From: Terriglobales bacterium
GTDB lineage: Bacteria > Acidobacteriota > Terriglobia > Terriglobales > Acidobacteriaceae
DNA length: 35,968 nucleotides
NCBI GenBank assembly: GCA_035937135.1
Contig: DASYVL010000074.1
Coordinates: forward strand, 1-35,968
Direction: 5' to 3'
Under the pieces are notes generated by a model that was not told where the DNA came from, searched no databases, and worked only from the letters and a program-made list of their open reading frames with translations. Below are positions 5,030 through 18,132 of the stretch, one piece after another. The position numbers and the translations under genes are program-made. Positions within the stretch are counted from its first letter, which is position 1, and each line of letters starts with the position of its first letter.

Positions 5030-8305
<3,276 letters not shown>

Positions 8306-8363
8306 TATTGGGAAAGCAGGGTCAACCGCAAACCATATCGGGCGCCCGCAACGCCAGCCTTGT

Positions 8364-9053
8364 TTAAGGATGGCCCGGGCGGTAGGTGAGGTATTTCTCC
8401 AGCGGGATCTCGAAGTAGAACAGCTCCTTGCCGTTCTGGTCGCGCAGGCCGTGGACGTAGAGGCGCGCTCCCGCCAGCGGGTTGAGGATGCCCTGGACGT
8501 CGAAGATCAGGAAGCCGGACTGCAGCGAGCGCGCCTCCACCGCCCGGGCGCGGAACTGCATGGCCTCGATCTCCGCCTGCGCCTCCCTGCTGACCGTGGG
8601 CTTCATCTTCTTCTTGGGCAGGGGAACGGGCAGCGGGTTGCGCGCGGGCTCGTCGCCGCGGCGCGTCTGCCGGCCCAGGCGGCGGTAGAGGTCGTCCACG
8701 GTCGCCGGCGGGATCTTGCTGCGGTCGGCGGTGATCAGCTCCACTTGCATGTCCACCAGCGAGACCGGCTGGTCGCCGTCGTTGGAGATGACGAACTGCA
8801 TGGGCAGCAAATCCGAGTCTTTGTAGTTCACCACGAAGATGGCGGCCTTGTCGGGCATGTCGTAGGGATCGGCGGCGATGGAGACCTTCTCATCGTCGTG
8901 CGCTTCGTGCGCGGGATAGGTGTTGGCGTGGAAGGCCTTGGGCAACGGCTGCGGCTGCTTCTCCGCGAAAATCCACGCTGCGCTGGTGAACAGCAGCACA
9001 GCGGCCAGAAGCCAGGCTCTTGGGTTCCCGTGTTCTCTCTTCGGCTCGCGCAT
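8364..9053 (-). CDS. Secreted/anchored hypothetical protein
   Basis: A 229-residue protein starting at ATG 9053, chosen because AAGGA lies upstream and a signal peptide or anchor (residues about 13-31, WLLAAVLLFTSAAWIFA) follows a basic start. A longer in-frame start at 9131 would overlap waaA and is rejected. The mature part has an immunoglobulin-like beta pattern (FVVNYKDSDLLPMQFVISNDGDQPVSL...), a Lys/Pro/Arg-rich middle (about 135-160) and a C-terminal beta domain ending FEIPLEKYL. No named family is recognised. It is divergent from waaA and 58 bases upstream of the hybrid kinase on the same strand. Confidence 0.75.
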   Translation of the reverse strand: MREPKREHGNPRAWLLAAVLLFTSAAWIFAEKQPQPLPKAFHANTYPAHEAHDDEKVSIAADPYDMPDKAAIFVVNYKDSDLLPMQFVISNDGDQPVSLVDMQVELITADRSKIPPATVDDLYRRLGRQTRRGDEPARNPLPVPLPKKKMKPTVSREAQAEIEAMQFRARAVEARSLQSGFLIFDVQGILNPLAGARLYVHGLRDQNGKELFYFEIPLEKYLTYRPGHP

Positions 9054-9115
9054 GGAACGATTATCCTTCGGCGCTCGATTCGCCACAACCTCGCCGTCCC
9101 GGGGCGCACTCGTCT

Positions 9116-9121
9116 TACAAT
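9116..9121 (+). promoter_or_regulatory. Candidate -10 box (TACAAT) of the LPS operon, near-leaderless
   Basis: TACAAT ends 8 bases before the waaA ATG at 9130, the same spacing as the gatB TATAAT. Transcription would start at or next to the start codon. No good -35 box is visible. Confidence 0.42.
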
Positions 9122-9129
9122 GGCGACAC

Positions 9130-10491
9130 ATGTATCTGCTCTACAGCCTCGTCCTGGCGGCCGCGCTCCTTGTGGGCGCGCCGTATTGGCTGATCCAGAT
9201 GCTGCGCCAGGGCAAGTATCGCGCCGGCTTCGCCGAGCGCCTGGGACGCGTCCCTGCGCGATTGCTGCGTCCCCAGGCGCCCGCCGCCGTCTGGGTGCAC
9301 GCCGTCTCGGTGGGCGAGGTGCTGGCCGCGAGCGGCCTCATCGCCGAACTGAAGGCGCTCTTCCCCGGCCAGCGCGTCGTCGTCTCCACCACCACCACCA
9401 CGGGACAGAAGCTGGCGCGCGAGCGCTTCGGCGAGGAGAACGTCTTCTACTTCCCTCTCGACTTCGCCTTCGCCATCCGGCCCTACCTGCGCGCCTTGAA
9501 GCCGCCATTGGTGGTGCTGGCCGAAACCGAGTTTTGGCCCAACTTCCTGCGCCTGGCGAAGCAGAGCGGCGCGCGCGTGGCCGTGGTCAACGCCCGCATC
9601 TCCGACCGCTCCCTTCCCGGTTATCGTCGCTGGCGCGGGCTGCTCTTGGGCATCCTGCGCAACGTGAAGCTGTTCCTGGCGCAGAGCGAGGAGGACAAGC
9701 GCCGCCTCATCGCCATCGGCGCCGCGCCCGAGCGGGTGCAAGTGGCCGGCAATCTGAAGTTCGACACGCACGCTGCTTTTCCGCCCCCGGCGCTCGACCC
9801 GCTGCGAGTGGCGCTCGCCGCCGCCGGGCCTGCGCAGACGGTGGTCTGCGGCAGCACCGTCGAGGGCGAGGAAGACCTGCTGCTGCGCGCCTTCGAGATC
9901 GTGCGGACCCGCCATCCGCAGGCGGTGATGGTGGTGGCACCACGGCATCCTGAACGCTTTGATGCGGTGGCCGGGCTTCTAGCAGCCTCGGGGATCCCGT
10001 GGCGGCGGCGCTCGGCGCTTGACTCAGGCGACCGCGGCACGATTGCGGGCGGAGTGCTGCTGCTCGACACCATCGGCGAGCTGAGCGCGGTGTACGCGCT
10101 GGGCTCGATGGCCTTCGTCGGCGGAAGCCTGGTGCCGCGCGGCGGCCACAACATCCTGGAGCCGGCGGAGTACGGCGCGGCCATCCTGGTGGGGCCGCAC
10201 ACCGAGAACTTCCGCCAGATCGTCAGCCTCTTCGACCGCGCCGGCGCCCTGCGCGTGGTACGTCCTGATCCCCAGGCGCTGGCCGACGCGCTGCTGCAAC
10301 TGCTGGGCGACCGCGGCGCCCGCGAACACCTTGGGGGACTCGCCCGCAAGACCTGGCAGGCGCACTCCGGCGCGACGCAGCGCACGCTCGACGCGCTGGC
10401 CGTGCTGATGGGGCTCCGCCCCAGCGACCCGGTGGGACAGCCCGCCCCGACGCTGGCGCCACAGGCGCCAGGCTCGGGGGAACGACGATGA
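9130..10491 (+). CDS. waaA: 3-deoxy-D-manno-octulosonic acid (Kdo) transferase
   Basis: WaaA/KdtA (453 residues, GT30 family) moves Kdo from CMP-Kdo to the lipid A precursor at the inner face of the inner membrane. The N-terminal hydrophobic anchor (about 3-25) and the basic AGFAERLGRVP segment are typical. HAVSVGEV at 57-64 holds the conserved Glu (E63) proposed as catalytic base in the family. The C-terminal half has the GT-B signatures, including FVGGSLVPRGGHNILEPA. The ATG at 9130 is chosen because the anchor begins there; longer in-frame starts overlap the divergent gene. The stop overlaps the lpxK start (ATGA). Whether it adds one or more Kdo residues cannot be told. Confidence 0.96.
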   Translation: MYLLYSLVLAAALLVGAPYWLIQMLRQGKYRAGFAERLGRVPARLLRPQAPAAVWVHAVSVGEVLAASGLIAELKALFPGQRVVVSTTTTTGQKLARERFGEENVFYFPLDFAFAIRPYLRALKPPLVVLAETEFWPNFLRLAKQSGARVAVVNARISDRSLPGYRRWRGLLLGILRNVKLFLAQSEEDKRRLIAIGAAPERVQVAGNLKFDTHAAFPPPALDPLRVALAAAGPAQTVVCGSTVEGEEDLLLRAFEIVRTRHPQAVMVVAPRHPERFDAVAGLLAASGIPWRRRSALDSGDRGTIAGGVLLLDTIGELSAVYALGSMAFVGGSLVPRGGHNILEPAEYGAAILVGPHTENFRQIVSLFDRAGALRVVRPDPQALADALLQLLGDRGAREHLGGLARKTWQAHSGATQRTLDALAVLMGLRPSDPVGQPAPTLAPQAPGSGERR

Positions 10492-15565: not shown

Positions 15566-15579
15566 GCTTATCGCTTACA
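15566..15579 (+). repeat. Heptamer repeat remnant, left edge of the island
   Basis: GCTTATC-GCTTACA, two heptamers with one exact match to the array at 18110-18132. They lie 8 bases after the DUF3108 stop and mark the left edge of the low-GC island. Confidence 0.5.
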
Positions 15580-15609
15580 GGATTGTTCACTTTACGAAGG
15601 AGGCTGCTT

Positions 15610-16584
15610 GTGAGTAGCCTTCTCGTTAAGCCGCTCCATGAACCCCATTCTATAGCGCAGCGGCTTCCAGAAAGGCGAGCCGTGAGTATTGTGGCCGGAT
15701 TCAAGTCCCACGAAGGAATCGTACTCTGCGCCGACACGCAAGAGACCGTAGGAACAAGTAAGCGCCATGTCCCGAAGCTGCGCTTTGAGCCAAAAGAGAA
15801 AGCCGGTGATGGAGTTCCCCCTGACGAGTTGGCCGTTGGGTTCTGTGGCGCTACCAATGATGGGGTCTTCCTAGACGAGATGGTTGACCGCGCTTGGGAA
15901 AATGTGCAAACCGCTACGTCTCTTGACGAAGCCTGCGACAACATAAAGGGCAGCATCAAGACTTACCACCGAGAGGCTGTGAAGCTGTACCAAGCGGGGT
16001 CGGTTCCCCAAACCGAGCTAATCTACGGCGTCAAAATGCACCGTTCCTCTCGACTCTTCTATGCACTAGGGCCAGCAATCAGTGAACGGGATAAATATGC
16101 GACTGGCGGAGTCGGGGCATACATGGCCGATTTTCTCGCCAGCCGAATGTACAGGGACTATCTAGGCCTTACGCAATGTTTGATTCTTGCAACGTACACT
16201 CTCTTTCAAGCGAAAGAGAATGTGGACGGATGCGGCGGAGACAGTCACATTGCTATCCTCCGCGAAGATGGGGCGAGCGGGAAGGTGGACTGGCATCGTG
16301 TAGAGGCATTGACGGATTTATTGAAAGCGGCGGATCGTCATGCTGGTGAGCTTCTGCTTCATGTAGCAGACCTGAAATCAAGCAACGAGAAGTTTCGGGA
16401 ATCTGTGGGCTTGCTAGTTGATGCGCTCGAAGTGCTGCGCGACATGAAGCGGCGCGACATTGAGCAGCACGCGGGTATGCTGAGGGCACTTTTTGTTGGT
16501 CTTGGAGGGAAAGAAAAGCCGACCGAGGATGAATATGGCTTTTCTGTGGCATCAGACGCTGACAAGGCAGAGCAGCGACCATGA
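15610..16584 (+). CDS. Proteasome/HslV-fold Ntn-hydrolase-like protein
   Basis: The GTG at 15610 has a perfect AAGGAGG six bases upstream, giving 324 residues with a 25-residue leader before SIVAGFKSHEGIVLCADTQE. That segment matches the start of mature proteasome beta subunits and HslV (T-T-x-V-G-x-K-x-x-x-G-V-V-x-A-x-D). Counting its Ser as 1, the key Asp falls exactly at 17 and Lys at 31 (Thr1/Asp17/Lys33 in proteasomes). The later YATGGVGAYMADFLA and NVDGCGGDSHIAILREDG match the core, though the usual SG motif serine is replaced. The last 90 residues are a charged helical extension. A second in-frame GTG at 15682 would expose the Ser after fMet removal. No ATPase partner is nearby. Peptidase activity is inferred. 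The stop overlaps the next gene (ATGA). Confidence 0.72.
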   Translation: MSSLLVKPLHEPHSIAQRLPERRAVSIVAGFKSHEGIVLCADTQETVGTSKRHVPKLRFEPKEKAGDGVPPDELAVGFCGATNDGVFLDEMVDRAWENVQTATSLDEACDNIKGSIKTYHREAVKLYQAGSVPQTELIYGVKMHRSSRLFYALGPAISERDKYATGGVGAYMADFLASRMYRDYLGLTQCLILATYTLFQAKENVDGCGGDSHIAILREDGASGKVDWHRVEALTDLLKAADRHAGELLLHVADLKSSNEKFRESVGLLVDALEVLRDMKRRDIEQHAGMLRALFVGLGGKEKPTEDEYGFSVASDADKAEQRP

Positions 16585-16760
16585 ATCCACATCGCCAGAC
16601 TGCTATCGCTATCGGGGCAGTATTGTTTCTCATCCTCTTTGCCTTTGGCGTGCTTGCGGAAATAGGCGCATTACGGACATGGGAAGTCATAGTTGTAATT
16701 GTTGTGGCTCTCATTGCTTTTACAGCCGCAGGGCTGCTCTGGGAAGGCGAGAACAAATGA
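16581..16760 (+). CDS. Small two-helix membrane protein
   Basis: A 59-residue protein starting at ATG 16581, which overlaps the upstream TGA by four bases. After a polar start (MNPHRQT) come two hydrophobic segments (about 8-27 and 35-54) separated by EIGALRTWE, ending in a short charged tail. It should be an inner-membrane hairpin with both ends in the cytoplasm or both outside. There is no homology I recognise. Its overlaps at both ends with the proteasome-like gene and the zinc-ribbon gene argue that it is real and translated with them. Confidence 0.68.
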   Translation: MNPHRQTAIAIGAVLFLILFAFGVLAEIGALRTWEVIVVIVVALIAFTAAGLLWEGENK

Positions 16761-17056
16761 CTATAGAAACAAGAATCATCGTTGGGCTGAATGACATCCT
16801 CAGCGTTCAATTGGAGTGCGCGAAATGCCGCGCTAAGGTGGTGCGCTCTCCTGACGTTACGCTCACGCTCCCCCATGCCTGCGGTCAATGTGGCGCTACG
16901 TGGCGGCCGGGTCCTGAGGAGTTTGGAGAAGACCCGATGGCGGTAAGACTGGTGAGATTGATAAGTGCGCTACGGCAGTCCAACGACCGCGCCTTCGCAA
17001 TCAAGTTTGAATTCTTCATGCCGTCAGCTTCTCAAACGTCAGCGGGTCAGCAGTAA
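16757..17056 (+). CDS. Zinc-ribbon protein, C-terminus running into the IS element
   Basis: A 99-residue protein whose ATG overlaps the previous stop (ATGA). Two cysteine pairs, ECAKC (about 25-28) and ACGQCGATW (about 46-49), form a rubredoxin-like zinc ribbon. The second half is helical (VRLVRLISALRQ). The last 13 codons overlap the 3' end of the transposase gene on the other strand, so the true C-terminus was probably replaced by IS-derived sequence (ending SASQTSAGQQ). No family is recognised. It probably acts with the two genes before it. Confidence 0.65.
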   Translation: MTIETRIIVGLNDILSVQLECAKCRAKVVRSPDVTLTLPHACGQCGATWRPGPEEFGEDPMAVRLVRLISALRQSNDRAFAIKFEFFMPSASQTSAGQQ

Positions 17057-17906
17057 CCATATGGCGCAGGGTATCTACAAACAAGTCTGCACGCTTGCGG
17101 CGGTTGAACCGAAACTCCATTTCCGCCAAGTATGCCGGGAGGTGCTTCGCACTCACCTTGTGCCACGTCCCGATGATTCCCCGCTTGAGCAGCGAGAAGG
17201 CCGATTCAACGGTGTTCGTGTGAATGTCCCCTCGCGCGTAAACTCCCTTGCTGTGCGCGATGGTCTTATGCCGCTTGGGTGCAACCGCCTTGCGGTAGGC
17301 GTAGAAATCATCCGTCACAACCACGTCAACATCTGTACTCACGTTGTCATGGATATACTGCGCCAGCGTGCCGCTCTTTACGTCTGTGGTGTGAAAAAAC
17401 CGGAGATCGCCACCGCGCTGCCGGATGCCAACCACAATGTCCTTCTTCGTTCCGCGTCCCTTGCGGGAACCTGGGCGGCGGCTTCCCCCGACATAGGTTT
17501 CGTCAACCTCTACGGTTCCATCCATCATCGAGCGTTCTGTCTCTCGCATCGCGGCGCGAATGCGGTGGAACAGATACCACGCGGTCTTGTAGGAGCCTTT
17601 GTGCTGGCCCCAAAGCGTCCGCCGAAGCTGATTCGCACTCATGCCCTTGCGCGCTTCCACCAGAAGCAGGACGGCGAGAAACCAGTAAGTGAGCGGCAGG
17701 TGGGAATCGTGGAAGATGGTTCCTGCGGTCGCCGTGAACTGGTACTCACACGCGGCGCACTCGAAGCGGTCATATTCCTTCAGCCGCGAGATGCGGGTGT
17801 CATGGCAGCGCGGACACTCAACACCATTCGGCCAACGGAGCCGTTCCAGCAACTGACGGCAACGGGCATCGGTCGGGTACAGTCTTTGAACGTCAGGGAG
17901 AGTCAT
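17016..17906 (-). CDS. IS1595-family (ISXO2-like) transposase
   Basis: A 296-residue DDE-type transposase that cuts and pastes its own element. The start at ATG 17906 is supported by GAGGTG six bases upstream; an in-frame extension to 18029 lacks support. An N-terminal zinc ribbon (C31, C34, C50, C53: ECPRC ... ECAAC) is typical of the family. The catalytic core includes D135 (VEVDETYVGG), D199 (VVVTDDFYAY) and the NTVESAFSLLKRG block (N231/E234/K241). The frame is intact and all key residues are present, so it may still be active. It ends overlapping the zinc-ribbon gene by 41 bases. Confidence 0.93.
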   Translation of the reverse strand: MTLPDVQRLYPTDARCRQLLERLRWPNGVECPRCHDTRISRLKEYDRFECAACEYQFTATAGTIFHDSHLPLTYWFLAVLLLVEARKGMSANQLRRTLWGQHKGSYKTAWYLFHRIRAAMRETERSMMDGTVEVDETYVGGSRRPGSRKGRGTKKDIVVGIRQRGGDLRFFHTTDVKSGTLAQYIHDNVSTDVDVVVTDDFYAYRKAVAPKRHKTIAHSKGVYARGDIHTNTVESAFSLLKRGIIGTWHKVSAKHLPAYLAEMEFRFNRRKRADLFVDTLRHMVTADPLTFEKLTA

Positions 17907-18051
17907 GGCAACACCTCGAAAGCATAGAGCGAAGTCGTATCTAGAACGGACGCCGACCCGGAAGCTGGTAGCGGGGCTAAAACGTGATTTGCGGCAGATG
18001 CTACGGGCGTCTGCTGCCGCCCAGCGCAAGCCAAAGAAAGGTAACGGGTAG
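17905..18051 (+). CDS. Small basic divergent ORF in the IS upstream region
   Basis: A 48-residue frame starting at ATG 17905, the same CATG that starts the transposase on the other strand. GGGAG lies 4 bases upstream. The product is strongly basic (MATPRKHRAKSYLERTPTRK..., ending QRKPKKGNG). It covers most of the transposase leader. It could be a small passenger or regulatory protein, or a chance frame; there is no homology evidence. Confidence 0.3.
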   Translation: MATPRKHRAKSYLERTPTRKLVAGLKRDLRQMLRASAAAQRKPKKGNG

Positions 18052-18064
18052 CCTCCATGATGGA

Positions 18065-18093
18065 AGCATACAGAATCAGCTACCCTTTGTCAA
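18065..18093 (-). promoter_or_regulatory. Strong sigma-70-type promoter of the IS transposase
   Basis: On the minus strand, a perfect -35 TTGACA (18093-18088), a 17-base spacer and -10 TATGCT (18070-18065). The predicted RNA start near 18058 leaves a leader of about 150 bases before the transposase ATG. An inverted repeat GGGTAGC/GCTACCC (18046-18052 and 18079-18085) overlaps the promoter and could be an operator or part of the IS end. Confidence 0.65.
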
Positions 18094-18109
18094 GTGAATA
18101 ATCGTGATC

Positions 18110-18132
18110 GCTTATTGCTTATCGCTTATTGC
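18110..18132 (+). repeat. Heptamer array GCTTATT/GCTTATC
   Basis: Three tandem 7-base units (GCTTATT, GCTTATC, GCTTATT) plus GC, running into the stop codon of the minus-strand gene at 18126. The middle unit with its 5-base extension is identical to the repeat at 15566-15577. Confidence 0.65.

Follow-up and report, generated by a model that had tools for sequence, protein, structure and literature searches.

What is a proteasome-like gene doing between the ends of a small bacterial transposon? We address this question for a gene named here pxl (proteasome-like N-terminal nucleophile (Ntn) hydrolase), found in contig DASYVL010000074.1 of a Terriglobales bacterium (assembly GCA_035937135.1); the whole stretch analysed, 35,968 nucleotides, is called the window below. 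Apart from the proteasome itself, HslV and connectase, most proteasome homologues have no known function, and their genomic context is uninformative (Fuchs et al. 2021, PMC8665760). The context of pxl is sharp: the transposon is compact, with two genes, its slot is near-constant, the catalytic triad is intact and the alleles diverge extremely. The function of pxl is therefore testable with 2-kb constructs. The proposal developed here is that a complete IS1595-family transposon carries pxl as its passenger and that the gene product is a proteasome-like Ntn hydrolase competent for catalysis; taken as a whole, it seems to us rather probable. The case also shows that proteasome-fold enzymes travel on small transposons of the insertion sequence (IS) type.

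Transposons carrying pxl

The first-pass annotation of the window had placed a proteasome-fold gene at 15610-16584 but overlooked that IS1595 and IS1 transposons carry this gene as an exchangeable passenger. The open reading frame (ORF) is confirmed at these positions on the forward strand, with a GTG start at 15610 preceded by the Shine-Dalgarno (SD) sequence GAAGGAGGC. It lies inside a complete element (Table 1), whose left repeat, CAGGATTGTTCACTTTACGAAGG, fits the end consensus of IS1595 elements, CAnGATTATTnACTTGACnAA. In our survey of element ends, it scores 18/22 for the inverted repeats (IR) and 8/8 for the target-site duplication (TSD). The GC content of the element is about 52-60%, versus about 65-73% in the flanks. 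No second copy of the transposase was found in the draft genome of the host.

Relatives of pxl are scattered in related soil bacteria of the same phylum, the named records from whole-genome searches being Acidobacteriaceae, Terriglobia and other acidobacterial metagenome-assembled genomes. They were recovered solely via whole-genome and profile searches; single-protein searches of plasmids, phages, viral contigs and genome contigs returned no relatives. The set comprises 61 loci and 55 full-length proteins (alignment A4), with some loci sharing one genome and many genomes being drafts. Complete elements, defined by inverted repeats, an 8-bp duplication and an adjacent transposase, were recognised at 28 of the 61 loci, 17 of them IS1595 and 11 IS1, the latter family assigned by PF03400. 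The strict threshold (IR of at least 17/22 plus TSD of 8/8) was reached by 25/61 loci, compared with 0/488 shuffles and 0/168 other positions on the same contigs; earlier, looser thresholds had given 4/183 shuffles. In many IS1595 elements of about 2 kb, pxl and the transposase are the only long genes.

Two candidate assignments were rejected. A repeated motif upstream of the gene, ACTTGACnAAGT, considered as an operator, is the terminal inverted repeat of IS1595 elements, and the IS1-type end GGTAGTGGGTCAGTTT, considered as IS21, belongs with an adjacent transposase that matches PF03400 (IS1).

Table 1. Coordinates of the pxl element and its components in the window
Feature	Position	Strand	Basis or remark
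Left target-site duplication, 8 bp, ATCGCTTA	15570..15577	.	Identical 8-mer at both element ends
Complete IS1595-family transposon, 2529 bp	15578..18106	.	Inverted repeats and target duplication; GC
Left terminal inverted repeat, 23 bp, CAGGATTGTTCACTTTACGAAGG	15578..15600	+	83% complementary to 18084-18106
Pro/Lys/Arg-rich in-frame leader of the probable long form	15610..15681	+	GTG at 15610; SD GAAGGAGGC, -11.0 kcal/mol
pxl, short form, 300 aa	15682..16584	+	GTG start; profile, model and alignment evidence
C-terminal two-helix tail of pxl, short-form residues 204-300	16291..16581	+	Helices in the AlphaFold2 model
59-aa probable membrane protein, two hydrophobic stretches	16581..16760	+	ATGA overlap with pxl end
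99-aa zinc-ribbon-like protein, two CxxC pairs	16757..17056	+	ATGA overlap with 59-aa gene; no Pfam match
IS1595-family transposase, convergent with the passenger operon	17016..17906	-	PF12762 2.8e-34, PF12760 2.4e-13
48-aa basic protein, divergent from the transposase	17905..18051	+	tblastn and ORF survey of right ends
Right terminal inverted repeat	18084..18106	-	Pairs with left repeat
Right target-site duplication, 8 bp, ATCGCTTA	18107..18114	.	Perfect, 8/8

Exchange of the passenger between elements

Comparison of the elements revealed that passengers are far more divergent than the transposases that accompany them. Among IS1595 elements, the median identity is 64% for the transposase and 20% for the passenger, without co-variation of the two (Spearman rho -0.08); among IS1 elements the values are 72% and 21%, with a modest correlation of 0.36. 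For instance, the transposases of loci L085 and L115 are 92% identical, whereas their passengers share 21%. When sister elements are compared as DNA, the alignable parts are limited to the first 29-76 bp and to the transposase together with the right end; two IS1 pairs additionally retain about 110 bp around the pxl start. Since the element ends and the transposase align in DNA and the passenger does not, these comparisons indicate that pxl is an exchangeable cassette of IS1595 and IS1 elements. The nearest relatives of the window passenger are in L037 (an IS1 element, about 50%), L085 (an IS1595 element, about 50%) and L087 (no element found), and the grouping of these four is supported by a value of 97 in the Shimodaira-Hasegawa-like approximate likelihood ratio test (SH-aLRT); no reliance was placed on the deep branches of the passenger tree, which are weak.

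Occupancy of the passenger slot was estimated by a transposase-first search, because the passenger-first sample is biased to pxl. Transposases at least 60% identical to that of the window gave 20 readable slots in one IS1595 clade, 18 of which hold an Ntn gene. Counted among these are L156-L159, a divergent group with a profile match to the main pxl profile at 96.9% probability (E 1.4e-10). Beyond that clade the slot is mostly filled by unrelated proteins, many of which have a hydrophobic N-terminus. In one IS1595 clade, then, pxl is near-constant, and most other clades examined lack it.

Eight IS1595 elements with inverted repeats and a target duplication (L160, L163, L165, L166, L169, L170, L172 and L174) have unrelated cargo in the same slot. 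Many of these cargo proteins have N-terminal hydrophobic segments and no Pfam family; the slot gene of L172 encodes a DUF5343 / PDC-M34A candidate defence protein.

Predicted fold and catalytic residues

The Pfam family PF00227 (Proteasome) matches the window protein alone weakly (E 0.014 for the ORF, 0.01 for the short form) but 42 of the 55 relatives, the best at 4e-12. When a profile of the 55 relatives was searched against PDB sequences, it retrieved both proteasome beta chains (8e-16) and Anbu (2e-13). The AlphaFold2 model of the window protein, predicted for the monomer from the 55-sequence alignment, has a predicted local distance difference test score of 93.2 and a predicted template modelling (TM) score of 0.90. 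It consists of an Ntn core up to about residue 208, then long helices 204-228 and 235-273; helices 61-75 and 81-102 (H1/H2) are present and there is none N-terminal to residue 61. Foldseek ranks Anbu on top (E 1.2e-11, TM 0.58/0.74) and also matches the proteasome beta subunit, while VIA-align gives Z 23.8 (2.1 Å, 182 residues) for the beta subunit and Z 22.8 (3.2 Å, 217 residues) for Anbu. As structural matches of the model the two are effectively tied. The product of the window gene is thus predicted to be a proteasome-fold Ntn hydrolase. The fold claimed by the first-pass annotation is upheld by profile matches, model, Foldseek and VIA-align alike, and its helical tail by the model; the outcome that it had named as refuting, a prediction lacking the Ntn fold, did not occur. 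Its estimate of about 90 additional C-terminal residues is borne out by model residues 209-300.

The proposed catalytic residues could all be located by codon, with the numbering as claimed from Ser1: Ser1 at 15685-15687, Asp17 at 15733-15735 and Lys31 at 15775-15777. Across the full-length relatives, Asp17 is invariant (55/55) and the Lys is present in 54/55, and a Gly-x-Gly and a CGG-type motif close to the core end are also well conserved. Since 53 of the 55 have Thr at residue 1 and 2, the window included, have Ser there, Ser1 appears to be a rare yet permitted variant; the serine in place of Thr1 emphasised earlier is true of the window protein but not family-wide. The Ser/Thr-Asp-Lys triad, whose conservation in homologues had been proposed as the second test of the assignment, is accordingly found conserved, and the pxl enzyme is apparently active.

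It had also been suggested that the protein may represent an undescribed Ntn-hydrolase subfamily. No model among NCBIfam equivalogs, PADLOC and PHROG names pxl, the NCBIfam matches being distant proteasome models, and the suggestion is plausible, with the families of Fuchs et al. 2021 (PMC8665760) compared by text.

Start codon and leader

Two starts had been offered for the gene, GTG at 15610 with a leader and an internal GTG directly before the serine. Of the 61 loci, 59 have a readable N-terminus (the other 2 lack this end), and in each of these 59 genes the codon before Thr/Ser1 is ATG, GTG or TTG. An SD match precedes this nucleophile-adjacent start in most relatives (mean energy of anti-SD pairing -6.45 versus -1.43 kcal/mol in control stretches, p=2e-21); in the window the internal site has -3.5 and the upstream site at 15610 has -11.0 kcal/mol. 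Since a start codon directly precedes the nucleophile in all 59 genes, usually behind a ribosome binding site, the internal GTG at 15682 is likely the catalytic start. Removal of the initiator methionine is established for Met-Thr and Met-Ser ends.

The leader frame is open in 28/30 transposase-linked genes versus 18/29 others (Fisher p 0.005), and its content of Pro plus Lys reaches 31-32% in the coding frame only, in both transposon families. Because the frame is open and Pro/Lys-rich in that frame alone, in both families, the long form is probably made as well; in other words, the internal start is favoured for the catalytic form, with the leader form probably translated beside it. An explanation of the leader as a mere SD artefact was rejected, as the Pro/Lys bias is wider than the SD, confined to a single frame and found in both families. 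The "ER" within the leader motif RLPERK is the in-frame reading of the SD GARAGG.

It could be argued that the long form is the real product and that its leader is a propeptide, removed autocatalytically between position -1 and Ser/Thr1. The open, Pro/Lys-rich frame and the strong SD at 15610 would suit such a propeptide. We nevertheless regard it as unlikely, since the codon at -1 is always a start codon and mostly has its own SD, which a propeptide would not need, and since in several relatives a stop codon lies in frame just before the start, making a leader impossible there.

Comparison with known systems

Anbu, which has a C-terminal H5 helix and assembles as a helical split ring, resembles the predicted pxl product in its Ntn fold, absence of a propeptide and C-terminal helical extension. 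However, the two share 15-17% identity, the pxl tail is longer, with two long helices, and pxl sits in transposons. The 20S proteasome beta subunit shares the triad Thr/Ser1-Asp17-Lys33 and the core fold at about 16% identity, but has Gly at -1 where pxl has a start codon and lacks the extra C-terminal helices of pxl; neither an alpha subunit nor an ATPase was found beside pxl. HslV is a bacterial proteasome homologue beginning Met-Thr, as most pxl relatives would, yet it has no helical tail. No HslU is encoded beside the gene, the element holding pxl, two small ORFs, the transposase and the 48-aa basic protein, so that the earlier exclusion of HslV stands. The host (a draft of 192 contigs) has one other PF00227 hit, a single unlinked gene on contig C4. 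Connectase is without H1/H2 and has a two-helix S3/S4 insertion, whereas the pxl model keeps H1/H2 and shows no helix ahead of residue 61.

Fuchs et al. 2021 (PMC8665760) define 22 families, WPH, PMI and PHI among them, which are likewise divergent proteasome-like proteins with variable C-termini; the text of that study, on which our placement of pxl beside its families relies, mentions neither transposons nor acidobacteria. The PPH and AAH proteasome homologues are phage-borne, a precedent for carriage on mobile DNA, and ATP-independent roles have been suggested for such homologues (Fuchs et al. 2021, PMC8665760).

IS1595 and IS1 elements with passenger genes are already known as "transporter ISs" (Siguier et al. 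2009, cited in PMC3129680). As far as that citing account describes them, they resemble the window element in their DDE transposase, 8-bp target duplications and passengers unrelated to transposition. Compared with that description, the passenger here is proteasome-like, near-constant in one clade, highly divergent and present in both families. No report of proteasome-like passengers in transposons was found within the open-access literature searched.

Possible role of pxl

We propose that translation from GTG 15682 would be followed by removal of the methionine by methionine aminopeptidase, leaving Ser1 free to serve both as the nucleophile and as the base, as happens in HslV and Anbu. Through the long helical tail, subunits could pair and form a small assembly, Anbu-like or other, and pxl would cleave peptides or proteins. 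More speculatively than any of these steps, the target could be a strain-variable protein of the host or of a competing element, and a fresh allele might benefit the element by aiding establishment, allowing escape from defence or providing defence. The constant presence, intact catalytic residues and extreme sequence variety of pxl are what a variable target would lead one to expect, and the reading that we favour is a peptidase whose targets, in hosts or rivals, vary. Its most specific version, a polymorphic cassette system in which divergent alleles are shuffled between IS1595 and IS1 elements and act on strain-specific proteins for establishment or competitor exclusion, is put forward tentatively, with less than even confidence. 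If true, such a system would do by proteolysis what accessory genes of other mobile elements do in manipulating defence. The alleles also offer a naturally occurring collection of small, divergent Ntn peptidases or ligases that apparently work without an ATPase.

Several points weigh against this interpretation. About half of the loci lie outside recognisable complete elements, some of them at contig ends or decayed, and neither an adjacent AAA+ unfoldase nor a gene recognisable as encoding a substrate was found within the element. As other IS1595 slots hold unrelated proteins, some of the passengers may be neutral hitchhikers, and low identity could mean relaxed surface constraint rather than an arms race, although the triad is nonetheless intact.

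The near-constant presence of pxl in one IS1595 clade, where it invariably lies at the left end, convergent with the transposase, and the many elements that contain just pxl, the transposase and a small right-end protein could also be expected of an accessory transposition factor, whose proteolysis would limit or activate the transposase and thus let the element control its own copy number. This seems quite improbable in view of the lack of co-variation in IS1595 elements and of related passengers accompanying unrelated IS1595 and IS1 transposases. Indeed, since transposases that are 92% identical carry passengers that are 21% identical, pxl probably does not serve its own transposase as a dedicated partner. 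Hardly more credible is a plain quality-control peptidase, like BPH or an uncapped 20S core, captured by a transposon by chance: the housekeeping-type triad, an element without a partner ATPase, the ATP-independent roles suggested by Fuchs et al. and the other PF00227 gene of the host agree with it, but chance capture leaves the 18/20 slots, the second transposon family and the 20% identity unexplained. A host-benefit or defence cassette, that is, a protective protease-type effector borne like resistance genes on transposons, is possible, though we would not count it as likely. The alternative slot genes include the DUF5343 / PDC-M34A candidate, one IS1 element carries a ThsB-like TIR protein and the alleles are very diverse; on the other hand, PADLOC has no match for Pxl, there is no constant linked sensor or toxin, and nothing else is aboard most IS1595 elements. 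The favoured reading thus remains the peptidase with variable host or rival targets.

Other genes of the elements and their surroundings

For neither the 59-aa membrane gene nor the 99-aa CxxC gene of the window was a counterpart found in other elements, and both are therefore dispensable for the system. By contrast with these two, the 48-aa basic protein is conserved at the right end of most IS1595 elements, with the consensus ...LxRVPTRKLxAxIKRDLR...KPKKG. Its gene start overlaps that of the transposase, the protein has no Pfam match, and it is possibly a small accessory factor of the element. Across elements, the leader motif R-L-P-x-R-K of pxl resembles R-V-P-T-R-K of this right-end protein, which may be coincidence.

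Some individual loci have further neighbours. At L032, positions 6830-9368 with a perfect target duplication contain pxl, a DUF3800-like gene and a 66-aa transposase remnant, apparently a non-autonomous transposon. In L037, a TIR-domain protein (9588-10064; PF13676 1.1e-11; ThsB-like, PADLOC) is encoded between the inverted repeats that were assigned to one 4.9-kb IS1-type element together with pxl. At L038 (2997-9059), pxl lies outside recognised elements, with a Y-family polymerase-like gene (IMS) on one side and SRAP and KAP-NTPase genes on the other, and at L121 a RES-domain gene (912-1427; PF08808 3e-31) is convergent with pxl.
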